From Microthyrium microscopicum (lineage: Eukaryota; Ascomycota; Dothideomycetes; Microthyriales; Microthyriaceae): DNA of 64,000 bases. Location: NCBI GenBank assembly GCA_010405405.1, contig MU004245.1, positions 251,256 through 315,255 of the forward strand, given 5' to 3'. The notes beneath the pieces are model-generated. The model saw only the letters and a list, made by a program, of their open reading frames with translations. It had not been told where the DNA came from and did no database searches. Position 1 is the stretch's first letter, and every line of letters starts with the position of its first letter. Below are positions 3 to 64,000 of this stretch, in pieces. Both the position numbers and the translations under genes were made by a program.

Positions 3-2499
3 TCGCGGTTCGATATCGTATGGCCAGACCAGGGAATGCAAAGTGAATCGAGAGCCGGGGTTGATGCTTTGACCTATGGCCTTGCGACACTTGTCAAAGC
101 ACAAGAAATCTTTGGAGAAGCCGCCTTTCAACATGGTCGGCGAGGCAAAAAGAAGAACAACAACTCGGCCCTTCTTCCTTCCAATCCATATCCTCTTCGG
201 CGTAGGCGACTCGGCAACTATTATGCATCATACACCAAAAAGTTCTCGCTCGGAAATGGACCCGCTGACTGCGTGCGAGAATATCTCATCACTAAAGAGG
301 GCGGTAAGATGCTTGGAACGCTGGTCGCCCTAGCAGTCGCCCGTATGCAGAACTTGGAAGCTTTTGTTTGGGATATGCCCACTGGCGTGTTGCGGGATGT
401 TTGGTTGGCACTCTCATCGTTAGGGGATACTGAAGACGAAGACGAGTGCCGTCTAGAGAAAGTTTGGGTTCGATGGCACAACAATTGGCAAACTGACATA
501 TCTGACGGCCCTCCACCACCGCCTCCGCCGAATGTGCCGCCGCCAAACCTGGGTGCGAATGCGAATCACAACAGCAATAATGCGACGATCGCACCGATCT
601 CTGCGGATCTGGCAGCACTGCCACTGATAGACCGAGTCGAGTACCCCTCTTTCTCCGTTCTTCCGGCTTTGAAAAGCTTGACTGTGTTGGAGATAGACGA
701 GTTGGCATACCTTGATGAGATGAGTATACTCATTGCTAGATCGCAACATCGCCTCAAGGAACTTCGAATCGGAATTGCTCGACATGCTAGAAACATGGAC
801 TGGACCGGTAATTGGCAAGGGGATGCTTATTATCAAGTCGATCATCGAACCACTTGGACCATAGCAAGCAATGTTGGCGACAAAAGACTCGAGGGTGTTT
901 TGGGTGTGCTCGTTGGCCGGATACATAATTTGCGAAACAATGCCGAAAGCTCTAGAACGGAATTCGGTAGAGAGTTCATCGCAAAAGTGCTCGAACAACA
1001 GCATGTGTCGGAGGAAGTGAGAATGTCTCAGGATCAATCCGACGAGGCCACAACTAGTCCTGAAACAACTGCTGGAGCTCCTCACGAAGAAGATGCACAC
1101 CGAATTGGAGAATCATACGTACCGGAATTCAACGCTACCTCACGAGGAAGCGTAATGAGCTCATCTCCACCGGACAACGAGTCACGCGAAAATCTTGCAC
1201 TTTCCAGTCCCGTAGCGACTTCTCCTGGACAATCTTCTCACTCACTTCCGACTCCCACTTTACATACTACAAACAAGGTAATACCCCTTCGACCTGCTCG
1301 GCCGCTCAGATCGGAAGCCAAAAAGACAGATAAAGACGGTCCGTTCCTGAATGGATGTTTGAAGCTGGAAACTCTCGAACTTGAGCGTGTTCCGCTATCT
1401 CTACCTGTCTTTCGCCAAGCGTTCGATTTCACCACCATCACAAATCTGACTCTCATTAATTGTGTTGGTCATGAGAGGTTATGGAAACAACTTCGTAGCC
1501 GATATGGTCCAATTGGCCGCCGAGGCTCCATGTCATATCGCATGTCTGCTCATGGCTATTTGAACTTGAAGAAGATTCATACAGACACGGTTTCGTCTCA
1601 GTTTCTTCACTTTGTGAAGGAGACCTTGAGACCAAATACTCTTGAAACACTGTTTTTACAAGATCGCTGGGGCTCCCCAGTGAGCGTAGGATCAATCTTC
1701 AAATACGCCGTTCGAAGACACCGAGCTTCTCTGAAGCGACTATTGATTGACAGCAGTCACCTTGAAGACCTTTTCACCGAGGGTAATTCTCGATGGCGCA
1801 AATGGCGATTGTCAAGAAAGATGGTTGCATATCTCACCAGTGGCAGAATGAGTAGTCTTCGAGAGTTGGCTGTGAGCATTGAATACGCCGATTGGGTAAG
1901 TATCTTTTGAACAGAACACAGAAGTATTATCTAACCTTCAGTAGCACATTTTTCTGCAACGCCTTCCTCGCGTCCACCAACTTCGTTCTTTGTTTATCCC
2001 ACACATCGCCGATCATCCACAAGTTGGCCTCGACACCCACGATCTCGCCATGCAAATAGTCGACATTGTCACCCTCCGTCCAGAGATAGAACTCTGCTAC
2101 ATGGGCTTAGGTACTAAATGCTTCGAAATTCTTGAGAATCGCCCACTACCATCTCCAAGCCCCACCGGAACTGATTACAGCCTTGCTTCATCGGGCGTGG
2201 CTTCATCCGGTCGCACACATCATGACTCAGATGGATCCGATGATGAAGACCGCGGAACGTTGAGCGATGACGATGCCACCGATGATGATGCAACATTTGA
2301 TGACGCCTCGGAGGCAAGTGATGAACTCGACGAGGACGCCGCACTGGACGATGACGATGGTGCCAGTCTTTCAGACTCTGACGATGAATGGGAATCTACA
2401 CGACGTGGCAAGCGCAAGGCCTCGCCAAAACTACGACTCCAGGAGATTCTGTTTTACGACAAGATTGCCATTTTCAAAGCTCGCTACGGCCGGCTTTGA
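3..2499 (+). CDS. LRR/F-box-like protein with acidic C-terminus, 5' partial
   Basis: The frame is open to the left edge, so the true start may lie outside; the first in-window ATG is at 36. Exons are 3-1895 and 1945-2499, with an intron of 49 nt (GTAAGT, CTAACC branch, acceptor TAG); phase is kept and gives at least 804 residues. Leucine-rich stretches recur (LKSLTVLEIDELAYL, LETLELERVPLSLPVF, FTTITNLTLINCVG, LRELAVSIEYADW, LPRVHQLRSLF), as in fungal F-box/LRR proteins. They are separated by a Pro run near residue 160 and a Ser/Thr-rich insert. The last 100 residues hold a dense Asp/Glu/Ser tract followed by a basic GKRKASPKLRL segment. I see no F-box in the visible part; one could be upstream. 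The function is unknown, and substrate recognition for an SCF ligase is only a family-based guess. Confidence 0.7.
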
Positions 2500-3210
2500 A
2501 ATCCGTTGTGAATAGTTCCAATTTACCCCTTTCTTGTTCCTGGTTATTTGAATCCTATATTTTGTATTGAGCGAACTGTCTGTCATCCTTTCTTGTTGTA
2601 TTCTGCAGGGTGCATAGGCTGCTTGGGCAATAACGACTATAACGGCTGAACGGTATACTCTTTTGATGGGATTGTCATAGCGATGGACGCTTTCGGGCGA
2701 TATAATTACTGCGTAGATGATTGATTTTAGAATGTCAGTCGAATGAATTGAATGAACAAGAACTCGCCAACGCATTTGAAGCGAAATAAAGTACTCTGTA
2801 GGAAATCCTAGTAGATGGTAGACATCGCACTCTTTGGTAGAAGTTGTCCTTTTCTTGAAGCTGTTGCGCCTCAAGTGGTTGACAAAATAAAGGGCGCGCT
2901 CCCAGCGAGTGCGATGGCTCCCATAAAAGACGATCTGGTATCGAGTGCTTTATTTACCATCGAGCGCGTTCAGACTTGGGCATTTTATTGAATGCGATGG
3001 GAAACATAGCACCTTTTAATCAACAGCGTTGGTGGGAGCCATCGACGCTGATGGGAGAACGCCAGCTATTTTGTCCATCGATTGAGCCTCCTCATATGCA
3101 AGATTTCAGACCGATCTAACCACCAAAACTTCTCCCCCCACCTTTTTTTCTTCCACAAAACCACCCAAAATCCATCCACACTTCCAAATCCCACAAATTG
3201 AATCGCCATA
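2500..3210. other. intergenic region, 3' flank of LRR gene and TMA16 promoter
   Basis: There is no credible gene. The middle is occupied by a miniature inverted-repeat element (2881-3074). The last 130 bases are CT/CA-rich up to the TMA16 start and probably form its promoter and leader. Confidence 0.6.
2881..3074. mobile_element. MITE, copy 1 of a local family
   Basis: The ends are imperfect inverted repeats of about 45 bp. The left end reads gacaaaataa, then a block with ctccca and gatggctccca; the right end, reverse-complemented, reads gacaaaatag, ggcg, ctcccatcag, gatggctccca. The element is about 194 bp with no coding capacity. It shares the internal stretch taaagcactcgata (here on the minus strand) with the copies at 11069 and 43214. 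No target-site duplication is clear. The transposase source is not in the window. Confidence 0.7.
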
Positions 3211-3825
3211 ATGCCAAAATCACTATCCAAAGTCCAAAAACACATCACCAAAAAGAAGGGCAAAATCACCCACCTACACGCAAACTCCCGCGATGCCCAA
3301 TCCCTCCTCCGCGCCGGCGCCCGCGACGCCTCCGTCAGCAAATCAGAAATTCTACGCCGTCGCGTAAACAAACCTCTCGTCGAGCGTGTACAATTCTTTC
3401 AGACTGCGCTATTTCCTCCTCCGCCAGAACAAATTACTACCAACGATGCCATGGACACACAAACCGAGAATGACGCAAATGTGCAGGCGAAGGGAAATAG
3501 CGGACCCTTGGATGTGGAAGCTACACAAGCACTGATCGTCAAGTTTTTGGCACGTCATGATGAGGAGCGCGCTGAGTTGGCGGCCACACGGAGAACTGGA
3601 CGACCTGCTGGTGCACGGGAAGATGCGTTGGCGAGCAATGGCAAGGCGGAGAGGGCGGAGTATGATGCGGGGTTTTGGGTGCCGGATTTGGGCGATGAGA
3701 AGAATCTTGTTGCGCTGGAGGAGTGGAATGGACGGTGGATTGGGTTGAATATTGTCAAGTTTGTGCGGGTGTCGAGAGGGGGTGTGGTTAGTGCCAGTAA
3801 ATGGCCACCGAATGCGCAATCGTGA
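3211..3825 (+). CDS. TMA16: translation machinery-associated protein 16, 60S biogenesis
   Basis: This is a single-exon gene of 204 aa. The N-terminus MPKSLSKVQKHITKKKGKIT followed by HLHANSRDAQSLLRAGARD is the hallmark of the Tma16 family, which binds nuclear pre-60S ribosomal particles in yeast. The first 60 residues are strongly basic, fitting rRNA contact. The C-terminal half (FWVPDLGDEKNLVALEEWNGRW) also fits the family. Length is close to the usual 180-210 aa. The start is the first ATG of the conserved block. An in-frame low-complexity linker around residues 70-150 is lineage-specific. It stands alone, tail to tail with the SLM1-like gene. Confidence 0.9.
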   Translation: MPKSLSKVQKHITKKKGKITHLHANSRDAQSLLRAGARDASVSKSEILRRRVNKPLVERVQFFQTALFPPPPEQITTNDAMDTQTENDANVQAKGNSGPLDVEATQALIVKFLARHDEERAELAATRRTGRPAGAREDALASNGKAERAEYDAGFWVPDLGDEKNLVALEEWNGRWIGLNIVKFVRVSRGGVVSASKWPPNAQS

Positions 3826-4035
3826 TGAGCGTTTGGGGTTCCAAAAGACACGAGATATCACGAAACGGACAGGTTATAATTGATGCGGTAATTGATTTCG
3901 TGGGTATATACATAGGTCTCGGGAGGTAAGTGTCTCATATTATCATGATGAAAAGCAAACAACTAATCGTCTAAGCCAGGTCAAGCCAATTTGGCATCAA
4001 TGCGTACCTTTCACGACAATATTTGCAAGCGCTTC

Positions 4036-6664
4036 TTATGGATAGCTTCCACGTGGATATTCTCCTGGAACATGCAGATTGCTGACCGACTGATCTGTGT
4101 TGTTGCGGACCATTCCTCGTGAAGGCAGTTGTTCAACTACAGGTGCTTGGGTGTGCGATACACTGTCCGTTTGGCCAGGAACACCTGTACTCTGGTCATC
4201 GTGGATTGCTGATCCTGCAGAAGGCGCAGCTATTACACTCGCTGGTAGTGCTCTGCTTCGTAGCGGGTCGCTGGCATGGTCATGGGTAGCAGTAACCGCG
4301 GCAAAGTATGCCTTATCAGGAGCTGAAGTAGTGTTTGAATCAAATGCACCACTGGGATGCTCCGTTAGCCCAGGACTTGTTGTCAAGTATTCTGCCTGGT
4401 GAGCCTGTAGTAGAGGATTTTCGACTGGTGGCGGTGTCTCGTGAGATGGCCCTTTGTGCGAAGCATGCCATGAAGCACCAGCAGCAGGGCGCTGAGAAAC
4501 ATAGCTCTGATCCACCGAGCGGAGCTGGGCAACGCCAGCCGCGCTATCCCCATAGCCACTATCGCCATCAATATGACGCAGATCTGAATTTCTCAAGGGG
4601 ACGTCTCTTTCTGTACCCAGGAATTTCATTTCTTCGGGTTCCGATCCGTCACTAGAAGGTGTAAGACGCTGGTGTAAGCGATCTTGGCTCAATTGAACGT
4701 CGCTAGGAAATCGCCCACCTTGTGGACGGTCCGAGTTTGAGATCTGACCAGCTTTGGGAAGTGCATCGCCGTTTGCGCCGCTCATTAGCAAAGTGTTGGC
4801 ACTGAAGGGAATTTGATCTGCTTCATCGTCATCGAAGCTACTGACGCTCTTTGTGCTTTGGTTGCTGAAGCTTCTAGTATGGCGTCGCACAAAGTCATTA
4901 CGCTCTTCGCCCGTTTTTTCAGTGAGGGATTTGATGTCGTCGTACCATGCCAGCATCGTGTCGTATGATTCAGCTCGGAAAACCCAGCTATGTCCTCTAT
5001 GCATTCCGCCGGTCTGCCGACCCTTCAATATGAACTTATGAGAGCTTGAATCTGGTTGACTATGTGCTCCGAGTTTCTGGTCCAACAAGTACAATGACAT
5101 TATTGGTTGCTGTGTATAGACAGAGTCCGCTGATTTGAACTCATGAAGATGTGTCGGAGACAACACAAACCTATTTCTTGTCAGATCTGCTGGTATAAGG
5201 ACAGGAAAAACCTACCAGCCTGGTGTATAACTTTTCAGATATTTGCTCTTTCGCTCTAGCATCCCGGCCCGAACTTCTGCAGATGCTGGATGATATTTCC
5301 CTGGGTATTCCAGATCTTGAGCGCGTCGAAGAGGAGTATCGGGATTGATGAAATGTGGGTCTTTTAAAATGAAGTCTACCCACTCTGCATCCTTAGGTAG
5401 GCTGAGCGGACCGTTTTGCAATCGATCAACTGTTTCATAAGCTTCGTCTGCCTCCTTCTTGAGAATAGTAGCAAATGCTCGATGGGCTTTCTGAATCTCG
5501 CCGACAACGATAGCTTCAAGTTCACGACCTGAGCCTTCAATATTTAGATATGCCTAATCGAGTCAGAAAGTCCATAGGCATGTAAGTAAAGGTTAACTCA
5601 CCCGGTGGAGATAGTTCTCTTCGTCAACCAATCGTTCAACTTGTCTATCCACTGATAATCGAATGATATAGGGATCGTCTTTGCCAGCCATGACCTTGGC
5701 TTCTGTGTCAACGGCGGCCAAGGATTCTTGCAAAGTGCTGACCACTTTTTTGGTGTGCTCCTTCTCTTTCTCAATGGAATTCTTGAAGTCACCAGAAAGA
5801 GACTTGATTTCTTTAATCTTTGATTGTAAATCAGCTCGGAGGCTGTTGAGCTGAGATATAACATCACGATCAATCTCCTTGGCCTTGAGGTTTTCAGCAA
5901 CAGCTTGTTTGTGAAATTGTTGCCATATCTCATGGGCATCGCCTATTCCACCAGCAGGAAGAAATCCAACCGGCATTGCTAGGCTGTTGACCGTGTGCGA
6001 TATTTTGGTAGCAGTTTTGGCTCGTGCTTCGTATGTCGATTGAACCTCGCGGAAGTACATGATGAGATCTTTCAGTACTTTTCTCCACCCTGGACAATTA
6101 TTAGCGAATATGTGGGAGATGAGAGGTATCCCAAGTACCTTGAAATCTGGCAGCCAGGATATCCGTCGGTGAGCCTGTGGTGGGCACCGGCGTAAAGAAG
6201 ACACTCCTATTGTCGTCTCCACTTGTATCGTCATACGTGACTCCTCCGATGCTACCTGCTCGTACACTTCTCTTGCTACTACTCCTCTTCAGGCTTGACT
6301 TCCTGCTCAAGCTCTTCTTTTTCTTCAGCGTATTGTTCCTGCTAACACCACTGACACCAGAAACATTCGACGCAACTGATGCGCGCGATGTCGATCGCAT
6401 AATCGATGGATCTTCGGATTCTTCTTTATGCGACATTCTTGAGATTCTCTCAGCAAGAGTAACTTCGTCTTGTATGGGTCCTCTGGAGTCGCCTCGTTGC
6501 ATGTCAAAACTTTGCGCGAGGGGACTTGTCGGGGCAGGCTTGCTCGATAGATTGGAGTAGTCTGCGTTTAGCGCGTCCTCGTTTAGAGCTAAGCTATTGC
6601 TTCGGCCTATGTTGGAGGAAGCAAGGCGAGTCGAGGGGTCGTAACTGCTGTGAGAATGCATCAT
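4036..6664 (-). CDS. SLM1-like PH-domain protein (TORC2/PIP2 effector family)
   Basis: Four exons on the minus strand: 6664-6139, 6089-5602, 5553-5216 and 5170-4036. All junctions have GT-AG ends and keep phase, giving 828 aa. Residues 1-175 are Ser-rich and disordered with a basic KKKKS tract. Residues 176-450 form a long helical, F-BAR-like region beginning GWRKVLKDLIMYFREVQSTY. A PH domain spans about 440-565 (SYTPGWFVLSPTHLHEFK to HSWVFRAESYDTMLAWYDD). The tail is Ser/Pro/Thr-rich. This order matches yeast Slm1/Slm2 and the related Ask10/Rgc1 proteins. Slm1/2 bind PI(4,5)P2 at eisosomes and pass TORC2 signals to actin and sphingolipid control. The exact paralogue (Slm1 or Rgc1 type) cannot be fixed here. 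Confidence 0.85.
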
Positions 6665-52815: not shown

Positions 52816-54324
52816 TCATTCAAGGAGAGAAGCTTACTCATCGAGTATGTTAAGAAGCAGTAACTCGCGGTATCTGAGGTGCAGATGGGAGGCGCATTGA
52901 TCGCGACGAACGAACAGACCATATCAGACGATTATACGTAATCAACAGCAAGAAAAAGGCGAGAGGTGGAAAGTGAGCATTCAGACAGCCATCGATCGCC
53001 GATGAACTCACGATATGGCGGAAACGTGAGCAGGAAGAGCATTCGGTAAGGGAGGAGCCTCTTTACATGGAGTTTCATATCGCCGGCCAGCAGACAACAT
53101 ACGATGAACAGAGGCAAATGGAAACTGCGAGTATTGGTGTTTCGGCAATCTTCTACGTGATATCGTAGAAGACCAAGCAAGATGCAACGGATGCTTTGAG
53201 GATGATTGGCTTTTCAAGATTTTTGGGCGGAAGGTGCAAACTCCTCTCTGACCATCAAGCCAGGCTTGCGGCAATTGCGTATTGTCGGGATTCGGGCTCT
53301 CTGCCATGTCGATGGAGAGGAACATTCCGATGTTCAGCATTTGTTCGTTCTGCACCTGCCCTAATGTTTTTGCCAACGTCAGAGTTCCTTATAATAGGAC
53401 ATTGCCAGTCATCGAAGCGGAAGCAGCATCTATGCTTTGATAAGAGTAGTGGCCAGTACATTCAAAAAGTACGACAGCATCAATCCAAGCTCTTGAGAAA
53501 ATAAATCTGAGTTGCAAGTACACTGGAGGTGACAATTCAAAATGTGGTTATAGCAGTCTGGAGCGATGCAGCTTTGTAGAGGCGGGATGCAATAGACAAT
53601 GTCTCTTCCTCAATCCATCGCGCAAGGCAATAGAATCAATGAAAAGAACAGAATGGAGAAAAGGTACTTTTCAAAGAAGTAGACAAAAATTCTCAGATGA
53701 TCACGAAGACCATTTGAAGTGTTGGTAAAACTGTGTAGTTTTCAATTAGCAAAAACAAGGGCTCAGACGAATCTTCACAGCCTATGTACTGCCCTTGCAC
53801 TGAGATGTGGGGAAGAGAGAGAAGGAGGAAGGGAAGCTGGGGAGCAGAGACTAAATACCCCCCAGATGGAAAGAGTGGTACGCTAAGGAGAATGTTGATG
53901 TTGCTTGCAGTGATGAAGATGCCTACTTGAACAGGAATAGCGCCGGTTAGGCTCGACGGTACCATCAGAACTTCAAATGCGGAGTATTGGTGAAATAAAA
54001 AGTAAGGTTGGTGTTCAATACTGGAACCGAAGAGTTACTCTAGAGTACTGAACCAAACTTGACATCTGAAGCCAAGACTGATGATAGAGTCTTAATGTGA
54101 ATTGCTTGTGTGCTCTGCTAATTGTCTCTGAGACGATGTTCGTAATATTCTCAATGTCCTAGATGGTACTCACATCATGGTTGGATATGACAGTTTAGTG
54201 TATGGAGAAACAGTTCCTGGATATGGAAAGGATGGTGTTATCAAGTCGGATTTGGGAGTCACCAAGAATTAGCATTATTGAATCTCAGCTCGAATTCCAC
54301 CTCTGAATCAACAGTGATGACATT
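52816..54324. other. accessory stretch with a diverged sixth array unit
   Basis: No supported gene. On the minus strand near 53851-53862 a TATA-like ggtatttag followed by ctccccagcttcccttcctc resembles the array's promoter block. Near 53525-53640 sequences similar to the end of the unit appear (gattctattgccttgcgcga, ccagtgtacttgc). Minus frames at 53008-53376 and 53693-53965 have no domain I can name. Confidence 0.35.
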
Positions 54325-56427
54325 TCAACTAAAATCGAGAAACAGTTCTTCTCCACCAAAACCTGTTTGAGGGGGTAGGAAATCTTCGAAATATCTCCAG
54401 GAAACATCATCTGTCTCAAATCCGTGAGGCTCTGGGTTAGCGCTCGGAGACATCAATTGCGGCTCGAATGGTCTTGTGTTTCGTGAATCTTCTTGATTTG
54501 CTTCGGATTCTCTGGCTCTCTTTCTTGTGTAGGAGTCTCCGGCGGCCGCCTTTCGATCTAATTCTTTCATGAGAAATGACAACAACTTTATTCCACGCGA
54601 AGCAATCATGCTCATAGGAAACCCAGAGAGATGATCTGAAGCTTCTATCGCAAGAGCTTTGTGATCATTATATTCTGGTTCCACTGTTTGACGATGGAAA
54701 GCGTCAAGACACAAGATTATAGCAGCAGCTACGACAAACGCTTGTTCGATCCACAAGACAGGTCCATGGGTATCTGATGCGGCTTGAGCTTCATTGATAA
54801 TCGTCTTCGAAGCCGCAATGCATGTCCTCCGCGTAAATGAAAACGTTGAATTGGTAAAAGAGGGGCCGAGGAATTTTCTATGAATCATAATGATCTTGTG
54901 GGCAGCACATAGGGCCAACATCCTCCGTGCCCAGGGAACAAAGATAGGCCAGCTCTCCGGTAATGGCGAGTGATTGGATAGAAAAGTAGGAAGCGAAGCC
55001 TTAACAAGTGCTCTCATCTTCTCATCATAGAGCAAAACCTGCTCGTACTTTGTGTACAGTGTATTTGAAGACGCCATTGCCTCTTGCAATTGAGGCATTA
55101 GCGCAGCAATATCATAGAGATAGTTACAATAGCTCGTCATCGTCGGTATTTGTAACGGTAGCTCCTGGGTGCTTGAATCATTACAATTTAAAGGCTTTGC
55201 TGTATCGAAGTGTTTGGGATTCAGAGTAAAACTCTCAGAAAATGGAATCGAAAACCAACTTTGAGTACAGAGTTGACACCAGATTCGGCGTCCAGTCTCT
55301 CTTTTTATTCTTCTTGCAGCTTCAACTTCCCCGTCGGCTGTTGGTTGTATGCTACCTTCAGCAGGACCGACCGAGCTTGCTTGCTCCTCGCCTAGTCTAT
55401 TCAGGCCCAGAGACTCAGCGATCCGATTCGCGGCTGAAAGTAAGACAGATTGCGTATTGGATTTTCCGATAGTGTGTGCAGATATCGTTAAGCTCGAAAG
55501 GGCCTGTACTGAGTATATCGTATGCTGTTCCATGTAATCGGATAGGTTTAAACAGGTGATGGTGGCATTGTACCACTGATTTGACAGCTTCAGTCTTTCT
55601 TCCAGTTGAAAGCCCCAGTGGTTTGCAGAATTGTCTGTTGCACAAGTGATTGCACCTGTGAGGAGAGAGAACAGGAGGGCCACCCACTGAAGATTGACGT
55701 CAAAATGCTTGACATTGCCTTGATATTTGGTATAAAAGTCATCCAACTCATTTTGGAAAACAACTGTATTGTAGGATCCATGATACCATACAAGGCAAAC
55801 ACTATGAAAGTCCACCAATTGGTAGACATGCTTCTTTGAGGGTAATAGGGTTTGAAGCATATCTAATTGCGGATCTTTGATGGACTTTGTGAGGAGCGGG
55901 AGCTGCAAACTTGATGTATTACTGACTATCGGGATATGCCTTCTAGGACCACTCTCATTTTCAGGAGAGTGATGGAACTCTTGATCTTTTTGGCGGCCCC
56001 AGGCGAGAAACTCCAAAATCGTGGCGGCATCGTCACCATGTGCTTGCTCTTGGATTACATGGTGAGCAGAAGCTGGTAGATCGATATCAGGTACTGGCTG
56101 TATTGACCCTGTTCTCCTCGAATGAGTGTTTCTCGAAGATTGGAGGCTTGAAATCAGGGAAGCTTCGGTGGGAGAAGGGGAATATTGCTCAGTCGGTTCG
56201 GTCGATTGGCCTGGATTTCTTGCTGCTGTGGGCGATAGGAATCTGATTGATTGTGCCTGTAGTTGGGCTTCCAATTCGGCATTCCGACTCAAAAGCTTCT
56301 GAACTTCATCAGGGAGCTTTCGGGAGCATGAGGACTGCTCTCCGCGCTTGGTACAGGGTCCGCAGGGCAGGTTGAGATCGCATTTGACTTTCCTCTGATG
56401 GCAACTGGAGCACGAAAGTCGTACCAT
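54325..56427 (-). CDS. Zn2Cys6 transcription factor, likely regulator of the adjacent cluster
   Basis: Single exon, 700 aa. The start at 56427 gives MVRLSCSSCHQRKVKCDLNL followed by PCGPCTKRGEQSSC, a full binuclear zinc cluster within 40 residues of the start; the frame upstream of this ATG is leader. A short coiled coil (VQKLLSRNAELEAQLQAQS, about 48-66) follows, a common dimer element. The middle homology region of fungal regulators runs about 165-560 (HVYQLVDFHSVCLVWYHGSY, SVLLSAANRIAESLGLNRL). The end is acidic/aromatic (ETDDVSWRYFEDFLPPQ), possibly an activation region. It is transcribed away from the 2-oxoglutarate oxygenase gene across a shared 909-base promoter, so it is the natural candidate for control of that gene set. 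Confidence 0.9.
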   Translation of the reverse strand: MVRLSCSSCHQRKVKCDLNLPCGPCTKRGEQSSCSRKLPDEVQKLLSRNAELEAQLQAQSIRFLSPTAARNPGQSTEPTEQYSPSPTEASLISSLQSSRNTHSRRTGSIQPVPDIDLPASAHHVIQEQAHGDDAATILEFLAWGRQKDQEFHHSPENESGPRRHIPIVSNTSSLQLPLLTKSIKDPQLDMLQTLLPSKKHVYQLVDFHSVCLVWYHGSYNTVVFQNELDDFYTKYQGNVKHFDVNLQWVALLFSLLTGAITCATDNSANHWGFQLEERLKLSNQWYNATITCLNLSDYMEQHTIYSVQALSSLTISAHTIGKSNTQSVLLSAANRIAESLGLNRLGEEQASSVGPAEGSIQPTADGEVEAARRIKRETGRRIWCQLCTQSWFSIPFSESFTLNPKHFDTAKPLNCNDSSTQELPLQIPTMTSYCNYLYDIAALMPQLQEAMASSNTLYTKYEQVLLYDEKMRALVKASLPTFLSNHSPLPESWPIFVPWARRMLALCAAHKIIMIHRKFLGPSFTNSTFSFTRRTCIAASKTIINEAQAASDTHGPVLWIEQAFVVAAAIILCLDAFHRQTVEPEYNDHKALAIEASDHLSGFPMSMIASRGIKLLSFLMKELDRKAAAGDSYTRKRARESEANQEDSRNTRPFEPQLMSPSANPEPHGFETDDVSWRYFEDFLPPQTGFGGEELFLDFS

Positions 56428-57336
56428 TGTTAATGAAAACCAGGTCCGATATGAAAGCCGCAAGAGCAAGGTGTCAAACGCGTGAACCGACGCGTTCCTG
56501 TGAATCGTGAGTCTGTGCTGTGCGCCACTTAAATGGAACACCGAGCTTACGGAGTCTGGTCTTTTGCCGAAGATTAATCTTGAAGCTTTTGTTCTGATTT
56601 CTCAAGCCGATTTCAGGCAGGCAATCTTGCGCTTAGAATGTCTTGAGGGTCGATGCCGCGCTGGAGTAGGAGCGCACTGGCCGAAGCAGCTTCGGCCAGG
56701 TCCGCTGGACTGCTGTCAGCTAGCGACGGCGATGAGAGACCCCACCGTCTACCTAGGTACCTAGTACGCAATATTGTTCATCCCTCCTATCTGTACTAAA
56801 TGCAGAGCTTAGAGCAATGCGCAGTGCTGGCTACCTATTGAAAGATCCAGACTGTGGCTTGACGTCTATCCGGTCTCTACGCGACCGCAAGAATCGCTTC
56901 ACCAAGCTGACATATACGGAGTAGGCGTATCAAGGCACAATCCTTTGATTTGGCCAGTCAACTTTCCTCATGGGATCACCGAGTTCGGAAGTTCTAGGCT
57001 GGACTGAGGTTATTATCAGAAGCATCTGCTCGGGTTGGCGAATTGGGAGATCTGGAAGCTTATCGCACCAGTAAACTTGAATTGGACCTGGTTCGGAGTT
57101 CCGAGCGACAACCTCGAGGGTGTACGGAACCCCGACAACTGGTTGTCAGGAATTCGCAGGATGATCTATCACTCTACCCAAATATACTAACTAAACTTAC
57201 CACGGTCACACCTACAGTATGTCTGAGTATAAGAAGGATAGGTAAGCTTGCAGAATGAACATTCCTCGCTCAACAAACTCAATCACATACTCATTACTCT
57301 TCCAGCTTATCACCAAACGAACTCTCAAAGCTTGTA
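56428..57336. promoter_or_regulatory. bidirectional promoter, Zn2Cys6 regulator / 2OG oxygenase
   Basis: The two starts are divergent and 909 bases apart. HGATAR-type GATA sites (either strand) occur at 56787-56792, 57013-57018, 57060-57065, 57166-57171 and 57307-57312. About 2.7 are expected by chance in DNA of even composition. Such sites bind nitrogen regulators of the AreA/NIT2 type, but site counts alone are weak evidence. Confidence 0.45.
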
Positions 57337-58389
57337 ATGGCTCCAACCAAATATTCCACTCGACGGATTCCTACCATCTCTTTGAAAGACTTTGACAACA
57401 GAGTTGACGAGATCACTCAAGAACTTGTGGAAGCCTCAGAAAATGTCGGCTTTTTCTGCATTGTTGACCACGGAATCGCCCGCCAAACAGTGGACCAAAT
57501 GTTCGACAACTCCGCCCGTTTCTTTAACCTAGAAGATTCAACCAAATCACATATTCCCTTCTCACCTCAAAGAAATGCGGGTTGGGAGAAGAATGCGCAG
57601 ATCAGGCCATCCACTGGCGCTGTTGATCGAAAAGAATCCTATCAAATGCAATTTGGAGCCGGAATGGAAGGTCTTTGGCTTAACGAAACCGAGCTTCCAG
57701 ATTTCAAAACAGGATCATTGAGCTTCATGCATCAAGTCCAGGCTGTCAGCGAAAAGCTCATGACTTGCTTTGCTCGCGGACTTAGATTTGAGGATGACTA
57801 CTTTATCAAAGCTCACGACATAAGCCGTCCAGATTCTCAAACTGTCACCAGGCTCTTACACTACTTTGAGACTCCAGATACTCCAAACACTACTGGAGAA
57901 GTCTTTCATAGAGCTGGAGCACATACAGATTGGGATTTCCTCACTCTTCTTTTCCAGAAGGCCGGTCAGTCTGGACTGGAGATCTGTCCCGGCCGAGAAG
58001 TTAGCACATCTTTTGGATATGGAGATGTTTGGACCAAAGTCGAGCCCGACATTGAATCAAATGCAATCGTTTGCAACATCGGAGATCTGCTCATGTCCTG
58101 GTCGGACGACAGATTCAAAAGCACTTTCCATCGAGTCAAAGCCCCTTGTGAACCTGGTGACTACTATGGCGAGAGATATTCAATTGCTTTCTTTAATCAG
58201 CCATGCAAAGACGCTAAGATCCAGGGACCCCTCAAGAAGTACCCATTGGTCACAGGAGCAGAATTCACCAAAAATGCTATGGCTCGCAACTTTGCTGCGT
58301 TACAAGCAAAGATTCACAAGGAGGAAGAGACCAAGGTTTCACATGATAACCCCATCAGAGCCAACACAGCTGTCAAAGCCAGTGCTTGA
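57337..58389 (+). CDS. 2-oxoglutarate/Fe(II)-dependent oxygenase (IPNS/T7H-like)
   Basis: Single exon, 350 aa. An N-terminal DIOX_N part (IPTISLKDFDN, FFCIVDHGIARQTVDQMF) precedes the double-stranded beta-helix core. The iron triad is H196 and D198 in GAHTDWDFLTLLFQ and H265 in KSTFHRVKAP; R280 in GERYSIAFFNQP should bind 2-oxoglutarate. NIGDLLMSWSDDRFKSTFHR resembles fungal thymine-7-hydroxylase, which oxidises a ring methyl stepwise. The superfamily also holds gibberellin, flavonoid and penicillin enzymes, so the substrate is not fixed. The neighbours (amidohydrolase, nucleobase permease, aldehyde dehydrogenase) favour an N-heterocycle. The gene shares a promoter region with a Zn2Cys6 gene. 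Confidence 0.9.
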   Translation: MAPTKYSTRRIPTISLKDFDNRVDEITQELVEASENVGFFCIVDHGIARQTVDQMFDNSARFFNLEDSTKSHIPFSPQRNAGWEKNAQIRPSTGAVDRKESYQMQFGAGMEGLWLNETELPDFKTGSLSFMHQVQAVSEKLMTCFARGLRFEDDYFIKAHDISRPDSQTVTRLLHYFETPDTPNTTGEVFHRAGAHTDWDFLTLLFQKAGQSGLEICPGREVSTSFGYGDVWTKVEPDIESNAIVCNIGDLLMSWSDDRFKSTFHRVKAPCEPGDYYGERYSIAFFNQPCKDAKIQGPLKKYPLVTGAEFTKNAMARNFAALQAKIHKEEETKVSHDNPIRANTAVKASA

Positions 58390-58875
58390 AGGAGTAATAT
58401 GAGATGAGTTTTTGATTGGAATAGTTTGAGACATGAAATCCTGAACTCCATATGCATTTTAAAATATTTCAAAATTCCGATGTTCATTTGCCTTACCAGT
58501 GCGTAGTCGTCGTTAGGGTGCTTCGTGGTTCGTTCTTGACTTCGTCCCCTTATTGAACCTGACCCATTTCTGTCTTGAAGCTGTAGAGTTGGTTGAAGTC
58601 CCAGAAATACATATTTGTTGGCTTCGTCAATCGTGTCCTTCATAGCCAGCCTCGGGAGAATCCGGTGACTGCTCCGAAATAATCAGGTTACTTTTGACAT
58701 ACTCTGCTCAAAGAACGAATAGACCAAACGCCAACTCGAAAGCTTTCAGAAGCGGTAACATCTCCTGCTGACTTTAGGGGTTTAGTAACACTGAGCTTGG
58801 GTTTCTTATTTGACGTAAAGCGTATGTTCCAGGATTTTATGGAAGAATAACGATGTAGATCGGAAATATTTATAT
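58390..58875. other. convergent 3' region
   Basis: These 486 bases lie between the stops of the oxygenase and amidohydrolase genes. Small frames show no features. Confidence 0.5.
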
Positions 58876-60371
58876 TCATATGTAGTTTATGTTCATATGG
58901 TTCCTCGCACCAATACCTGATCTCTTCTTTATGCCTGCGATGGAGTCTCGAGCTTGCTTGATGATGACCTTCTCGTTGGCGTGTAGTAGCTCACCATCAT
59001 CGACCACCATAATTCCATCAATGACGACCTTTTCGACATTTGTTCCTGTGCAGCCATGGACCAGCAAAGTGATTGGATCCATTCCACCGACAGCACCATT
59101 TGGATCCCAAGGTGCGCAATCTGCAGAATCTGGATTGACAACCACAAAGTCGGCCTTTTTACCGATTTCCAGACTCCCAATCTCGGCCGCCAGGCCTAGA
59201 GCTCTAGCACCATTGATAGTGGCCATTTCCAGTACATCATAGGCTGTGATGAGCCCGGCACTTTCTCTCGCTCCAGAGTGAAGGATTGCGGCAAGATGCA
59301 TTTCACGGAACATGTCGTATGTATTGTTGCAGGGAGCTCCATCTGTTCCTAAAGAGACATTCACATTGGCTTTGATCATGTCAGGTATAGGAGATATTCC
59401 GGATCCAAGTTTGCAATTACTTGTTGGATTATGAGACACTGTGGTGCCTGACTCTCGCATGATCTCAAAGTCTGGATTGGGATCAGGGTGTACGACATGG
59501 GCCAGAACAGTCTTTTTGCTTGTCAATTGAGCTTTCTTGCAAAATTCCAGTGGACTGCAATTGTATTCTGAGTGAAAAATTGGACGATCTGCAGGAGCTT
59601 CCGCGCAGTGCATTGTCATTCCTATCCCGTATTCATGAGCTGTTGATCCTATGGCTGCATGAGCTGAAACTGGTGAGCCACGCGGAGTTCCAGCAGCAAA
59701 CCAAATGTGTAGTCGGTCATTGAAATGGCCATGGTAGGTCTTGTAAGCCATCAGAGCTGCTTCGATAGACATAGAAGCTACATCTTTGTCTCGTGCATCG
59801 TTCAGTTTCAGATTCGCGTTGGTTTCGGTTGTTTTGATCAATTTTCCCTGAATGATCATTAGCTCACCAGCTACCTTTTACGACGATGGACGTGACTTAC
59901 AAGGCAGGCTCGTACACCCAATTCTCCAACGGCTCTAACAACATTCTCTATCCCGCTTCCGTGTGTCAACATTGCTTCCAGGAAACAAGTGGTTCCAGAT
60001 TTGAGCATTTCGGCGATCGTCAATCGTGCTGCTACGTAACCATCATTGTCTTGGTAGCTAGCTTCCAAAGGCCAAATGGCATCGCACAGCCAAGAATGCA
60101 GAGGGAGATCCTCAGCCAGTCCCCGTAGTAGTGACTGAGCGAGATGAGCATGAGTATTGATGAGTCCAGGGATTATGATGCGGTTACTGCAGCTGATAAC
60201 AGTTTGAGGCGATCCAAATTCGGAAATGATCTCAGACGTCTTTCCAATGGCTTTGATGACACCGTTCTGAACCAAAATCGCTCCGTCCGAAATAACGTCT
60301 CTAGATTGATTGACAGTTATGAGGGTGGCGTTAAAGTACAACACACCATCTGGACGACCCGTGGATACCAT
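58876..60371 (-). CDS. ATZ/TRZ-type amidohydrolase (nucleobase deaminase-like)
   Basis: Exons 60371-59901 and 59847-58876 (53-nt intron); 480 aa. This is a metal-dependent hydrolase of the ATZ/TRZ (cytosine-deaminase-related) group. The metal set is complete: H74 and H76 in LINTHAHLAQSLLRGLAEDL, H237 in GMTMHCAEAP, H274 in TVLAHVVHPD and D326 in VSLGTDGAPCNN. The C-terminal segment GSLEIGKKADFVVVN closes the beta-sandwich. Family members remove amino or chloro groups from triazines, guanine, 8-oxoguanine, hydroxypyrimidines or S-adenosylhomocysteine. The residues do not tell which. The gene is divergent from the permease gene, and together they suggest uptake and deamination of an N-heterocycle. 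No signal peptide, so cytosolic. Confidence 0.9.
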
Positions 60372-61164
60372 CGTAATGGGCGTCTAACTTTGAAAAATAA
60401 TAAAGAGTAACAAGCGTTCAGGGGGATATATGTAAAGTAGTTGTGAACGATTTCTGTCTTGAAAACAAGTTGGTAGCAGGCGATTTCGTCTGCTTTGTTC
60501 TTTTTTCACTAAGAACCTCTGAAGCTTCTCAATGATTTCGTAAGTCGATTCAATTTAACCCTCTGAGTCCATCGTGCGGCACGACAGTCGGTCACAGACC
60601 TATTTGGTGAGGACCTCCATGTAAGATATGGGTTATGCCCGGAGGCTGCCGAAAATCCAGCTTCGTTGGCGGGAAAGAGACTACCTAGGATCTATCATCC
60701 AGTTACCAAGTACTAGAATGGGTCTAGACTACCCTACCATTCCTCCGAAATACTCGATTGAATCTGTTCTGCTGCATAGAAACGTGGGTTGTGGAACTCG
60801 GAGCTCCGATGCTGCCTGGGTTTGATAAGCCGGACCTACCGAAACATGCCACCCTTGAGCCCCTATCATTCGGATTTCGAGGCTCCAATTACTTGTTTAC
60901 CGCACCAATCTACCCGGTTAGCAGAACGATAAGAGACACTGTTCGCGATGGATTGAAAGCTGTATTCAATCAGTGTATCTTGTCCATCTCGGCTTCTATG
61001 GCGCCATATCACCATGCATCTAACTTCCTTCAGGAGGCCGGTGCTTTCCTATGGGGTGTGTACCGGTGATAGAGAAGCATATATAGAATGAAAAGATAAC
61101 TTGTATCGGTAAATGAAAGATCGTCAACAAGCTTCTCCAAGTTTTTGAATCGTCCAACTTCATC
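60372..61164. promoter_or_regulatory. bidirectional promoter, amidohydrolase / permease
   Basis: The starts are divergent and 793 bases apart. HGATAR sites on either strand lie at 60692-60697, 60823-60828, 60863-60868, 60927-60932, 61067-61072 and 61094-61099. Chance would give about 2.3 in even-composition DNA. This hints at nitrogen control but needs binding data. Confidence 0.45.
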
Positions 61165-63072
61165 ATGTCGATATCAGACTCACCCAATGATATGGAAAAG
61201 AAAGGCATTGAGCCAGTTGCCAATTTCGCACCATCCATTAGCGATGGCGAAGTTCAGGGTAACAGCAGGTGGACTGAACTCAAAAGCGACCTGCGAGCTA
61301 CCTTTTGCACGAAAGAAGGATGGTTTGGGGATTATGTTTGGCTCCTCATCTCGATTTCAAGCACTTCAACCTAACCTTCTTTAGGATTATCTCTACCTTG
61401 TTACACCAAACATTTGGCCATTGAACCGAAAGTACAAGAACTATGTCGCTCCATTTTATGGCCTATCAGACAAACTGCCAGTTGTTCTGACCATCCTACT
61501 CGGTCTTCAACATGCTCTGACAATGATTGGCTCCATTGTATCGCCTCCTCTGGCCATCGCTGCTGGTGCTTTCAACTTCGACCCCCAAATGACAGAATAT
61601 TTGGTCAGCACTTCCTTCATCACAACCGGCATTGCGACAGCTCTTCAAGTCACCCGGTTACAGATTGCTCAATCACCATTCTTCATCGGTACTGGACTTC
61701 TTTCGGTCGTCGGGCCCACTTTCGATATACTACCTATCTGCTTTAACTACGCCGCTATGCGTTACAAGAACGGTACTTGTCCAGTAGCTTCTGACGGTAC
61801 GCAACTACCATGTCCTGATGCTTGGGGCGCGGTATTGGGAACGATGCTTTGCACTGTTTGGGTCCAAATTCTGATGAGTTTCGTCCCACCCAAGACTTTG
61901 AACAAGATTTTCCCTAAGCTCATCACTGGATCTCTCCTTCTTCTAGTTGGTGTTTATCTTGTTGGCAATGGGATGCAAAACTGGGGCGGTTCCATGAATT
62001 GTCACGGTGGGGAAGGATTTTATGCTCTCTGCCCCAACGTGGCTGCTCCTAAACCTTTGTTGTGGTCAGTCATCTTATCATTTCTTGCTCTCCTGTAACT
62101 GACAATGTCTAGGGCCCATCCAAAGCTTATCGGCCTCGGCTTCAGCGTATTTTCGACTATCATCGTCGTAGAATCATTAGGCAGTCCTTTGATGCGCTCT
62201 GCTTCTGTCATCATAGGCCTGGCAGTCGGATGTATCATCTCGGCTTGTACTGGCTATTGGTCGATGACCGAGATCAAGGCTGCTCCAGTCGCAACATTTC
62301 CATGGGTTCACACCTTCAAACTCTCTGTTGATGGAGCGCTAGTTCTTCCGCTCATAATCATGTTCGCATGTCAAGCAGTGAGCTGCATGCCAGATATTCT
62401 AGCCACTGCCGAGATCTCAGGGGTAGAGATTGAGGGTTCCTCTTTCAACAGCAGAGTGCAAGGAGGAATCCTATGTGACGGCCTGGGTTCGTTCCTTTCT
62501 GCTCTTGCAACCGGTCCTCCAATGGTCAGTCAGGCAGGAAACAACGGAACTATCGTTTTGACAAGCTGTGCGGTAAGTGATCAGTTCTGATTATCCGAAG
62601 CAAGTGACTGATATCCTTTCAGAGTCGTCGCGCTGGCTGGGCCGCTTCCGCTATTCTCATTCTCATGGGATTATTTGGAAAATTTGGCGCTGTGTTCGCC
62701 TCTATGCCACCAAGTGTGCTGGGTGGAATGCAGGTCTTCCTATACAGCACCATTGCCGTTGCCGGAGTACGTGTTCTTGGCCTGATTGATTGGACACGAC
62801 GAGACAGATTTATTCTCACCGCTGCTCTGGGAATTGGTTTCATCGACATTGTCCAGCCTACTTGGTTCTCTCAAATCTTGGCATATTCTGGAGACAATGT
62901 TCACCTTGCGGGCCTCGAACAGGGCCTCAATCTCATCGTGGAAACTCCTTTTGTTGTTGCAGCATTTGTCGGTGTATTTCTGAACCTCGTTCTCTCGAAG
63001 GACAAGAGCGCCATGGATTCAAGATACGGAGACGAACACAAACATCCAGTGATAGGATCTGTATCTGAATAG
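61165..63072 (+). CDS. NAT/NCS2-family nucleobase permease (UapA/UapC-like)
   Basis: Exons 61165-61335, 61385-62064, 62113-62572 and 62623-63072; phase is kept, 586 aa (UapA 574). The cytosolic N-tail carries GWFGDYDYLYLVTPNIWPLN across the first junction, as in UapA. The core LLGLQHALTMIGSIVSPPLA is the NAT TM1 region with the QH pair. RRAGWAAAILILMGLFGKFG and VMGG-like PSVLGGMQVFLYS follow the signature. The NAT signature itself is altered: QAGNNGTIVLTSCA stands where UapA has AQNNGVIALTRCA. The Glu of TM8 seems replaced by Ser (CQAVSCMPDILAT). Both UapA residues (E356, Q408) bind xanthine or urate, so specificity should differ. Intron 1 has a weak donor (GTTTGG). It belongs to the putative cluster. 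Confidence 0.9.
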
Positions 63073-63200
63073 ATCTCCTTTTGTAGCCGTCTCATTTTCA
63101 ATACAAGATTTAGAAGAGAATGCTCAATCTCTTCATGTTGATAATGTCATAAAGTAATGTTTCACGTTCCAATGCATTCAGCCCGTAGCTGCCCTTACTT

Positions 63201-64000
63201 CTAGTTATATCGGACCTCACCTGCTCCTTCTCTGAACCAGTCGTCGTTTTGAAGACTTTCTTCAGTTGTCGCAAAGTTAATTATGGTACTTTTCATCCTC
63301 GTATACGTGTGGTAGGCGTCTGAGTTCGGTTAGCTCTTTGGGATTCGCAGTGATCGAATAATTTACCAATCCCGTTTTCACTGCCAACACCAGAACTGCC
63401 CATCCCGCCCCATGGACTCGAAGGATCATTACGGTGGTGGGTATTGACTGTACGCTTAAATAAGAACATTTCGGTGGCTGCATTTATTACTCACCCCATG
63501 TGATACCAGCATCAATCTGAGCTGCTATTCTGTACGCTTGAGATAGATCGGTTGTCCATAACGCGGCACCGAGTCCAAACTCGCTATCATTTGCGAGATT
63601 TACTGCCTCGTCCTCATCATCAAATCCAACGACAACAATCACGGGTCCAAAGGCTTCTTCTTTCCATATCCGTGTGTCCTTAATCTTTGCTTCTGGGCCA
63701 TCAATTAAGACAGTTGGTGGATAGTAATATCCTCTTTCGAAGTCGATGTCGTCAAGCTTTGATGTTCCGCTCAATCTTTGGCCTCCACAAAGCAGACGAG
63801 CCCCCTGATTTAAAGAACTATCAACTATGTCGATCACATTATTCAGTTGTCGTAACGAAACTATTGGGCCCATTAAGCAGCTATTGTTGGCAGGCGATCC
63901 CATACGATTTCGTATCAAATCGCACTTTGCTTCTAGCTTAGCAAGGATATCGGCTTTGATCGAGTTTTGAACCAGAATTCGTGTGGCTGCTATGCACGTC
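63201..64000 (-). CDS. aldehyde dehydrogenase, partial (N-terminus beyond right edge)
   Basis: Three visible exons: from the edge to 63495, 63447-63367 and 63319-63201. The frame starts at the catalytic motif (TCIAATRILVQNSI, Cys about four bases from the edge). It continues with SCLMGPIVSLRQLNNVIDIV, KEEAFGPVIVVVGFDDEDEA, NDSEFGLGAALWTTDLSQAY, IDAGITWGVNTHHRNDPSSP and WGGMGSSGVGSENGIDAYHT, ending MKSTIINFATTEE. This is the C-terminal half of the NAD(P)-dependent ALDH superfamily, betaine/aminobutyraldehyde-like in the WVNTHH area. Splicing at 63366-63320 restores the expected DAYHTYTRMKST, whereas reading through gives an odd tail, so the intron is well supported. It converges on the permease gene with only 128 bases between stops. 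Confidence 0.9.

Follow-up and report, generated by a model that had tools for sequence, protein, structure and literature searches.

The DNA analysed here is a 64,000-nucleotide stretch of the Microthyrium microscopicum genome (36.9 Mb in 20 contigs), located at C16:251256-315255 and referred to below as the window. Its introns, Zn2Cys6 proteins and U4 small nuclear RNA (snRNA) gene are marks of a fungal sequence. Towards its right-hand end lie genes for a Zn2Cys6 regulator, a 2-oxoglutarate (2OG)/Fe(II) oxygenase, an amidohydrolase, a NAT-family permease and an aldehyde dehydrogenase (ALDH), which a first-pass annotation had proposed to form a catabolic cluster for a nucleobase-like N-heterocycle. 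All five named genes are present (Table 1), with intact frames in models that were built manually with splice signals as the guide, and with Pfam matches; the ALDH gene starts beyond the window, and its three C-terminal exons (63201..64000) fall inside it. The permease is confirmed as an NCS2/NAT protein by its curated family score (TIGR00801, 317.7 bits against a cut-off of 291.8; PF00860, 169.8 bits), and the regulator has one paralogue in the genome, on contig C1, with 33-39% identity. Regulator and oxygenase diverge from a shared promoter of 909 bp, amidohydrolase and permease from one of 793 bp, and permease and ALDH are arranged tail to tail.

Table 1 Features in and beside the gene cluster, in window coordinates.
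Feature	Position	Strand	Details
Zn2Cys6 regulator	56427-54325	-	700 aa, one exon; PF00172 29 bits (cut-off 21)
Palindrome TCGGAGTTCCGA	57093..57104	no strand	Regulator/oxygenase promoter; second CGGN4CCG from 57125
2OG/Fe(II) oxygenase, assigned to the xanthine-riboswitch-associated family	57337-58389	+	350 aa, one exon; PF14226 61.1 bits and PF03171 61.7 bits, over cut-off
Amidohydrolase, deaminase type	60371-59901 + 59847-58876	-	480 aa, two exons; PF01979 219.5 bits
Palindrome TCGGAGCTCCGA	60798..60809	no strand	Amidohydrolase/permease promoter
NCS2/NAT permease, non-canonical	61165-61335, 61385-62064, 62113-62572, 62623-63072	+	586 aa, four exons
Aldehyde dehydrogenase (ALDH)	65217 down to 63201	-	520 aa, ten exons; PF00171 495 bits
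U4 spliceosomal RNA gene	53669-53806	-	Full-length Rfam match, 78.2 bits (cut-off 46); left of the cluster

The two divergent promoters, which had been said to tie all five genes together, would do so for four of them. Both contain TCGGAGYTCCGA, which occurs at one further place in the genome (three in total), and the general form of this palindrome, TCGGANNTCCGA, is found at 14 places genome-wide, compared with 46 for a reversed control; at the genome density, 0.0006 sites would be expected within the 1.7 kb of both promoters. Dinucleotide shuffling gave 1 promoter pair in 20,000 with any CGGNxCCG site (x = 2-13) in common that was as symmetric and of equal spacing, a figure to be read alongside the choice of the palindrome after inspection, for which scanning spacers 2-13 compensates only in part. 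Zn2Cys6 proteins bind palindromes of CGG half-sites, and the element is of the kind that the cluster's own regulator might be predicted to bind. Near the start of the ALDH gene, no match at up to two mismatches was present (0.97 expected) in the right-hand sequence, L009, that covers its promoter. The third copy of TCGGAGYTCCGA, on contig C3, sits within the coding frame of a gene resembling carbamoyl-phosphate synthase/aspartate carbamoyltransferase (named by eye), and was not counted as a regulon member. The two promoters together contain 11 HGATAR sites, where the average over the window would predict 4.7; this expectation takes no account of base composition, and the excess was therefore given no weight.

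The oxygenase had been read as thymine-7-hydroxylase-like, and its nearest solved protein is indeed the Neurospora crassa thymine 7-hydroxylase (T7H; 82 bits), which explains that reading. It keeps the Fe and 2OG ligands, Asn87, Arg190, Phe292 and an aromatic residue at 217 (T7H numbering), but in the thymine-contact set (N87, E122, Y217, F292 and N294) only N87 and F292 are unaltered, the other positions being changed as E122Q, Y217W and N294Q. Its identity to the N. crassa enzyme is 31% over 254 columns, compared with 61% over 269 columns for a protein encoded on contig C5 of the same genome. The literature records tryptophan at 217 in some T7Hs and an N294A substitution that was harmless (PMC4787775), so that the strongest arguments against a T7H are E122Q, the low identity and the existence of a separate T7H copy.

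By sequence, the oxygenase belongs to the bacterial 2OG family associated with a xanthine riboswitch (NMT1 motif, RF03054; pcbC-like 2OG genes). Among 60 matches listed, spread over 309 plasmid records, 12 share 42-47% identity with it and 48 share 22-31%, a gap that marks out the 12 as one family. In the tree, the window protein joins 13 family members with support of 92/91 (below the tool's 95 mark), away from the T7H pair. Glutamine at both pocket positions 122 and 294 is found in 14 of 14 members, the window oxygenase included, and in none of the 12 proteins outside the family; residue 217 is tryptophan in the window oxygenase and phenylalanine in the 13 bacterial members, and Asn87 and Phe292, though kept throughout the family, are present in T7H too. 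The RF03054 aptamer was detected at 12 of 13 family loci and at none of 6 control loci encoding 27-30% paralogues (p = 0.0003, for loci that are not independent), the sole miss being L128 from Streptomyces. It stands directly before the 2OG gene in 10 cases and before the operon holding that gene in two (L130 and L132). The 13 loci comprise 12 plasmid records, hand-picked for organism spread (11 out of a listing of 20 matches, one out of that of 60), and the genome locus L137; near relatives are included among them (three Cupriavidus, two Pantoea and three Rhizobiaceae loci), and three loci lacking gene annotation (L126, L138 and L139) were judged by tblastn. The controls were hand-picked from the weaker of the 60 matches, and two of them, L144 and L147, are mutually close.

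The ligands of this riboswitch are xanthine and uric acid, and it switches off the genes under its control, among them those for isopenicillin-N-synthase-like dioxygenases, substrate-binding proteins and PRK12393 deaminases (PMC7373994). According to that 2020 study, what exactly the dioxygenases do had not been established, and no later work on them turned up among articles judged by title and the start of the abstract. An amidohydrolase-superfamily deaminase is encoded at 9 of the 13 family loci and an NCS2 permease at 2 of the 13, so that the bacterial loci contain the same kinds of part as the window. They differ from it in that many import by an ABC system, in that the deaminase comes from another clade, and in their mode of control: no RF03054 aptamer precedes the window oxygenase (U4 small nuclear RNA was the only model to reach its gathering score in the window), and a Zn2Cys6 regulator is present instead.

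Two other arrangements were observed among 2OG genes outside the family. On a Pseudomonas putida plasmid (L145, 946-11769), an hpxO urate hydroxylase gene lies together with genes for Rieske oxygenases and for two 2OG oxygenases, and no xanthine riboswitch reaches gathering score. In the Rhizobiaceae plasmids L144 and L147, a distant 2OG gene lies beside nucleoside hydrolase, pseudouridine-5'-phosphate glycosidase and kinase genes, perhaps for the breakdown of another modified nucleoside.

For the amidohydrolase, the claim of complete metal ligands is borne out: H74, H76, H237, H274 and D326, at the metal-ligand and catalytic places, are invariant in a six-sequence alignment (A1), and with E240 as the catalytic glutamate of the HxxE motif the protein has the full deaminase residue set of its superfamily. 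None of the 25 curated models shown was passed. The protein scored 201.5 bits against a cut-off of 779 for PRK15493 (the 5'-methylthioadenosine/S-adenosylhomocysteine, MTA/SAH, deaminase group) and 176.5 against 375.4 for guanine deaminase (TIGR02967). The glutamine that follows beta-strand 1 (HAHLAQ) is as in guanine deaminases (PMC13054789, section 8), which is a hint only, because many differently labelled relatives share the HxHxxQ pattern. A triazine route was considered and rejected: although atrazine chlorohydrolase (178 bits) heads the solved relatives, structures that carry amidohydrolase or MTA/SAH deaminase labels score nearly as high.

A scan of prokaryotes with the amidohydrolase alone returned no relative, and a scan with the six-sequence alignment returned 567, of which the best 80 were analysed; the closest of these are from Ktedonobacteria (40-45% identity). 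The window protein groups with 14 prokaryotic proteins at 99/100, the tree leaving its position inside the group unsettled. Neighbours of the 80 loci were found by tblastn using proteins from L044 and L047, and purine-catabolic neighbours occur at 8 of the 14 clade loci and at 16 of 65 others (p = 0.025, uncorrected). L053 and L110 are absent from the tree; L053, a 5.5 kb Ktedonobacteraceae contig with no neighbour match, was also left out of the count and L110 was placed with the remainder, and several contigs are too short for neighbours (L043, for example, at 3.8 kb). At L044 (Dictyobacter vulcani), allantoinase, allantoate amidohydrolase, hydroxyisourate hydrolase, uricase and OHCU decarboxylase all pass their cut-offs, and relatives of these purine-breakdown genes are present at L045 and L052. 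These ktedonobacterial urate-allantoin operons resemble the window in their divergent amidohydrolase gene, whose product is among the nearest relatives (40-43%), but what they encode is the standard purine route, and a search of these loci at E 1e-4 gave no match to the window oxygenase.

The ktedonobacterial amidohydrolases of L044, L045 and L052 have no curated name, are encoded divergently beside a uricase-allantoin operon and are candidate purine deaminases of these bacteria. Separately, in Marinobacter salinexigens (L114, 2693-11586), the gene directly after an amidohydrolase gene encodes a 2OG oxygenase (30%) from a different family, which brings the two kinds of enzyme together independently; the neighbours (named by eye) include HpxZ/AtzH-like, isochorismatase-like and BMP/ABC transporter genes.

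The permease shares 45% identity with UapA over 510 columns and retains the UapA functional residues Q85, H86, F155, D360, D388, N409, G411, T416, R481, T526 and F528. It differs from UapA at F406Q and R417S and, in the two nucleobase-contact side chains, at E356S and Q408G. Nucleobase-type NATs carry a signature of a glutamate in transmembrane segment (TMS) 8 and a glutamine or glutamate opening the TMS10 motif (PMC5972032), where the window permease has serine and glycine, respectively. In UapA, Glu356 and Gln408 are absolutely necessary for binding and transport (PMC3405029), and a permease that lacks both substrate-holding side chains makes ordinary nucleobases a doubtful cargo. Fungal NATs of a non-canonical, UapD-like group also depart from the usual motifs, and two accounts report no transport data in support of a function for UapD (PMC5307856, PMC5972032). 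A plasmid search with the permease was uninformative (25-29% identity among the 12 matches listed of 397 records). One UapD is reportedly retained in the endoplasmic reticulum.

The ordinary purine genes appear to lie elsewhere in the genome. A UapA-type NAT on contig C14 keeps the glutamate and glutamine, and there are a xanthine-dehydrogenase-like gene and a uricase gene, together with allantoinase-like and urease-like genes recognised by eye. An amidohydrolase fragment on contig C2 reaches 360.5 bits against the guanine deaminase cut-off of 375.4 (TIGR02967), and belongs to the likely guanine deaminase of this genome. With the ordinary machinery apparently housed elsewhere, the cluster looks like an accessory route whose parts are divergent representatives of those functional classes.

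Together, the shared palindrome and the purine genes found around relatives of two of the enzymes support the proposal of a nucleobase-type catabolic cluster. On balance, and with modest confidence, we favour a reading in which the regulator, oxygenase, amidohydrolase and permease genes form one regulon that serves to take up and break down a purine of a non-standard kind, amino- or otherwise substituted, or else a fused-ring compound very similar to one. The regulator would bind TCGGAN2TCCGA in both divergent promoters and act on its own gene and the other three; the permease would import the compound; and the oxygenase would oxidise it, by hydroxylation of a ring C-H or by oxidative loss of an N-alkyl group, between which we make no ranking. 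The amidohydrolase would exchange an exocyclic amino or alkylamino group for oxygen by means of its metal-bound water, to give xanthine, urate or a similar product that could join the ordinary purine route encoded elsewhere in the genome.

Several observations weigh against this reading. The gene set is known here from one fungal genome alone, and the palindrome was selected after inspection; when two mismatches are tolerated, 10 palindrome sites occur in the window against 8.6 expected, so that weak versions of it carry no meaning. The best curated model for the amidohydrolase is 5'-deoxyadenosine deaminase (PRK07228), at 353 bits of the 522 required, its HxHxxQ pattern is common, and the support for the 2OG clade falls short of the 95 mark. 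Four scanned bacterial 2OG loci carry PRK12393 or cytosine deaminase, which are other deaminase subfamilies, and only 1 of the 80 amidohydrolase loci has a 2OG match, to a different 2OG family; the resemblance between window and bacterial loci is therefore one of kind, not of a conserved pair. The 2OG family is patchy (a search of 369 genomes of the class of G001 at E 1e-45 returned G001 only), and at L145 a 2OG gene outside the family also lies near a urate hydroxylase gene, so that purine surroundings are not unique to the riboswitch-associated family. Finally, with both nucleobase-contact side chains lost, the permease may have quite another cargo or none at all.

The nearest rival to a purine substrate is a pteridine (pterin or isoxanthopterin) or another fused 2-amino-4-oxo ring, from which the amidohydrolase would remove the 2-amino group while the oxygenase oxidised a ring position or side chain. 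Pterins share the amino-oxo ring edge of guanine, the lost nucleobase contacts of the permease would suit another cargo, and at one family locus (L141) a gene annotated as isoxanthopterin deaminase lies beside the 2OG gene. The L141 protein, however, passes PRK12393 and no pterin model, the ligands of the riboswitch in the bacterial family are xanthine and urate, and the amidohydrolase clade is found with uricase, allantoinase or adenine deaminase genes; we consider a pteridine substrate unlikely. Less likely again is that there is no single pathway, the genes being chance neighbours or the remains of a decayed cluster whose permease has stopped transporting. The two lost contact residues, the existence of UapD-like NATs with no reported transport function (PMC5972032, PMC5307856) and a co-location known from a single fungal genome would all fit such a history, but the frames are intact, the permease keeps the other UapA functional residues, the rare palindrome is present in both promoters, and relatives of two of the enzymes occur in purine contexts. 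Import of thymine or 5-methylcytosine with stepwise T7H-like oxidation of the methyl group to aldehyde and, with ALDH, to acid, followed by deamination, is very unlikely: the nearest solved structure and the conserved Asn87, Phe292, Arg190 and aromatic residue at 217 speak for it, but the pocket changes E122Q and N294Q mark a family whose bacterial members have a xanthine riboswitch, the T7H counterpart is the C5 gene, the ALDH promoter lacks the palindrome, and T7H performs all three oxidations by itself (PMC4787775), so that no ALDH would be needed.

If the purine reading holds, the cluster could further represent a eukaryotic pathway, so far undescribed, for a purine of this kind, which we put forward tentatively: a relative of the orphan dioxygenases of the bacterial xanthine-riboswitch regulon, a deaminase of the purine-operon clade and a NAT whose binding site has been remodelled to take a new cargo, all controlled by a single dedicated regulator through a near-unique palindrome of its own. 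The parts are of known kinds, and their combination in a eukaryote appears new. In agreement with the first-pass annotation, no fungal cluster of this composition was found described in the open-access literature, judged mostly from listings. The nicotinate (hxn) cluster of Aspergillus nidulans is alike in combining a T7H-like 2OG protein (HxnY, of open function) with the breakdown of an N-heterocycle (PMC9304392), but its regulator, HxnR, is of the Cys2His2 type (PMC5746545) and its enzymes differ from those of the window (PMC9304392); an hxn-like cluster is ruled out by gene content. A fungal cluster in which a riboswitch-family dioxygenase stands alongside a deaminase and a changed purine permease limits the choice of substrate to what all three would accept, and so brings it within reach of feeding, deletion and enzyme assays. 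The cluster also offers a candidate role for a NAT that lacks the nucleobase motif and, if the proposal is true, would supply both a functional context for a non-canonical fungal NAT and a means of approaching the reaction of the orphan dioxygenases in a eukaryote.

The ALDH, which had been assigned the aldehyde-to-acid step, is left out of the regulon, as nothing was found that ties it in. ALDH-like stretches are frequent, with 19 elsewhere in the genome, and a plasmid search with the protein was uninformative (41-44% identity among the 8 matches listed of 3,432). Within 30 kb to the right, where more enzymes of the route had been anticipated, none was recognised among open frames of at least 100-120 aa inspected by eye, an approach that short exons may escape. 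To the right of the window (L009, about 2317-5792), a beta-carbonic anhydrase-like gene shares the upstream region of the ALDH gene and is followed by an acyltransferase-like gene, both named by eye.

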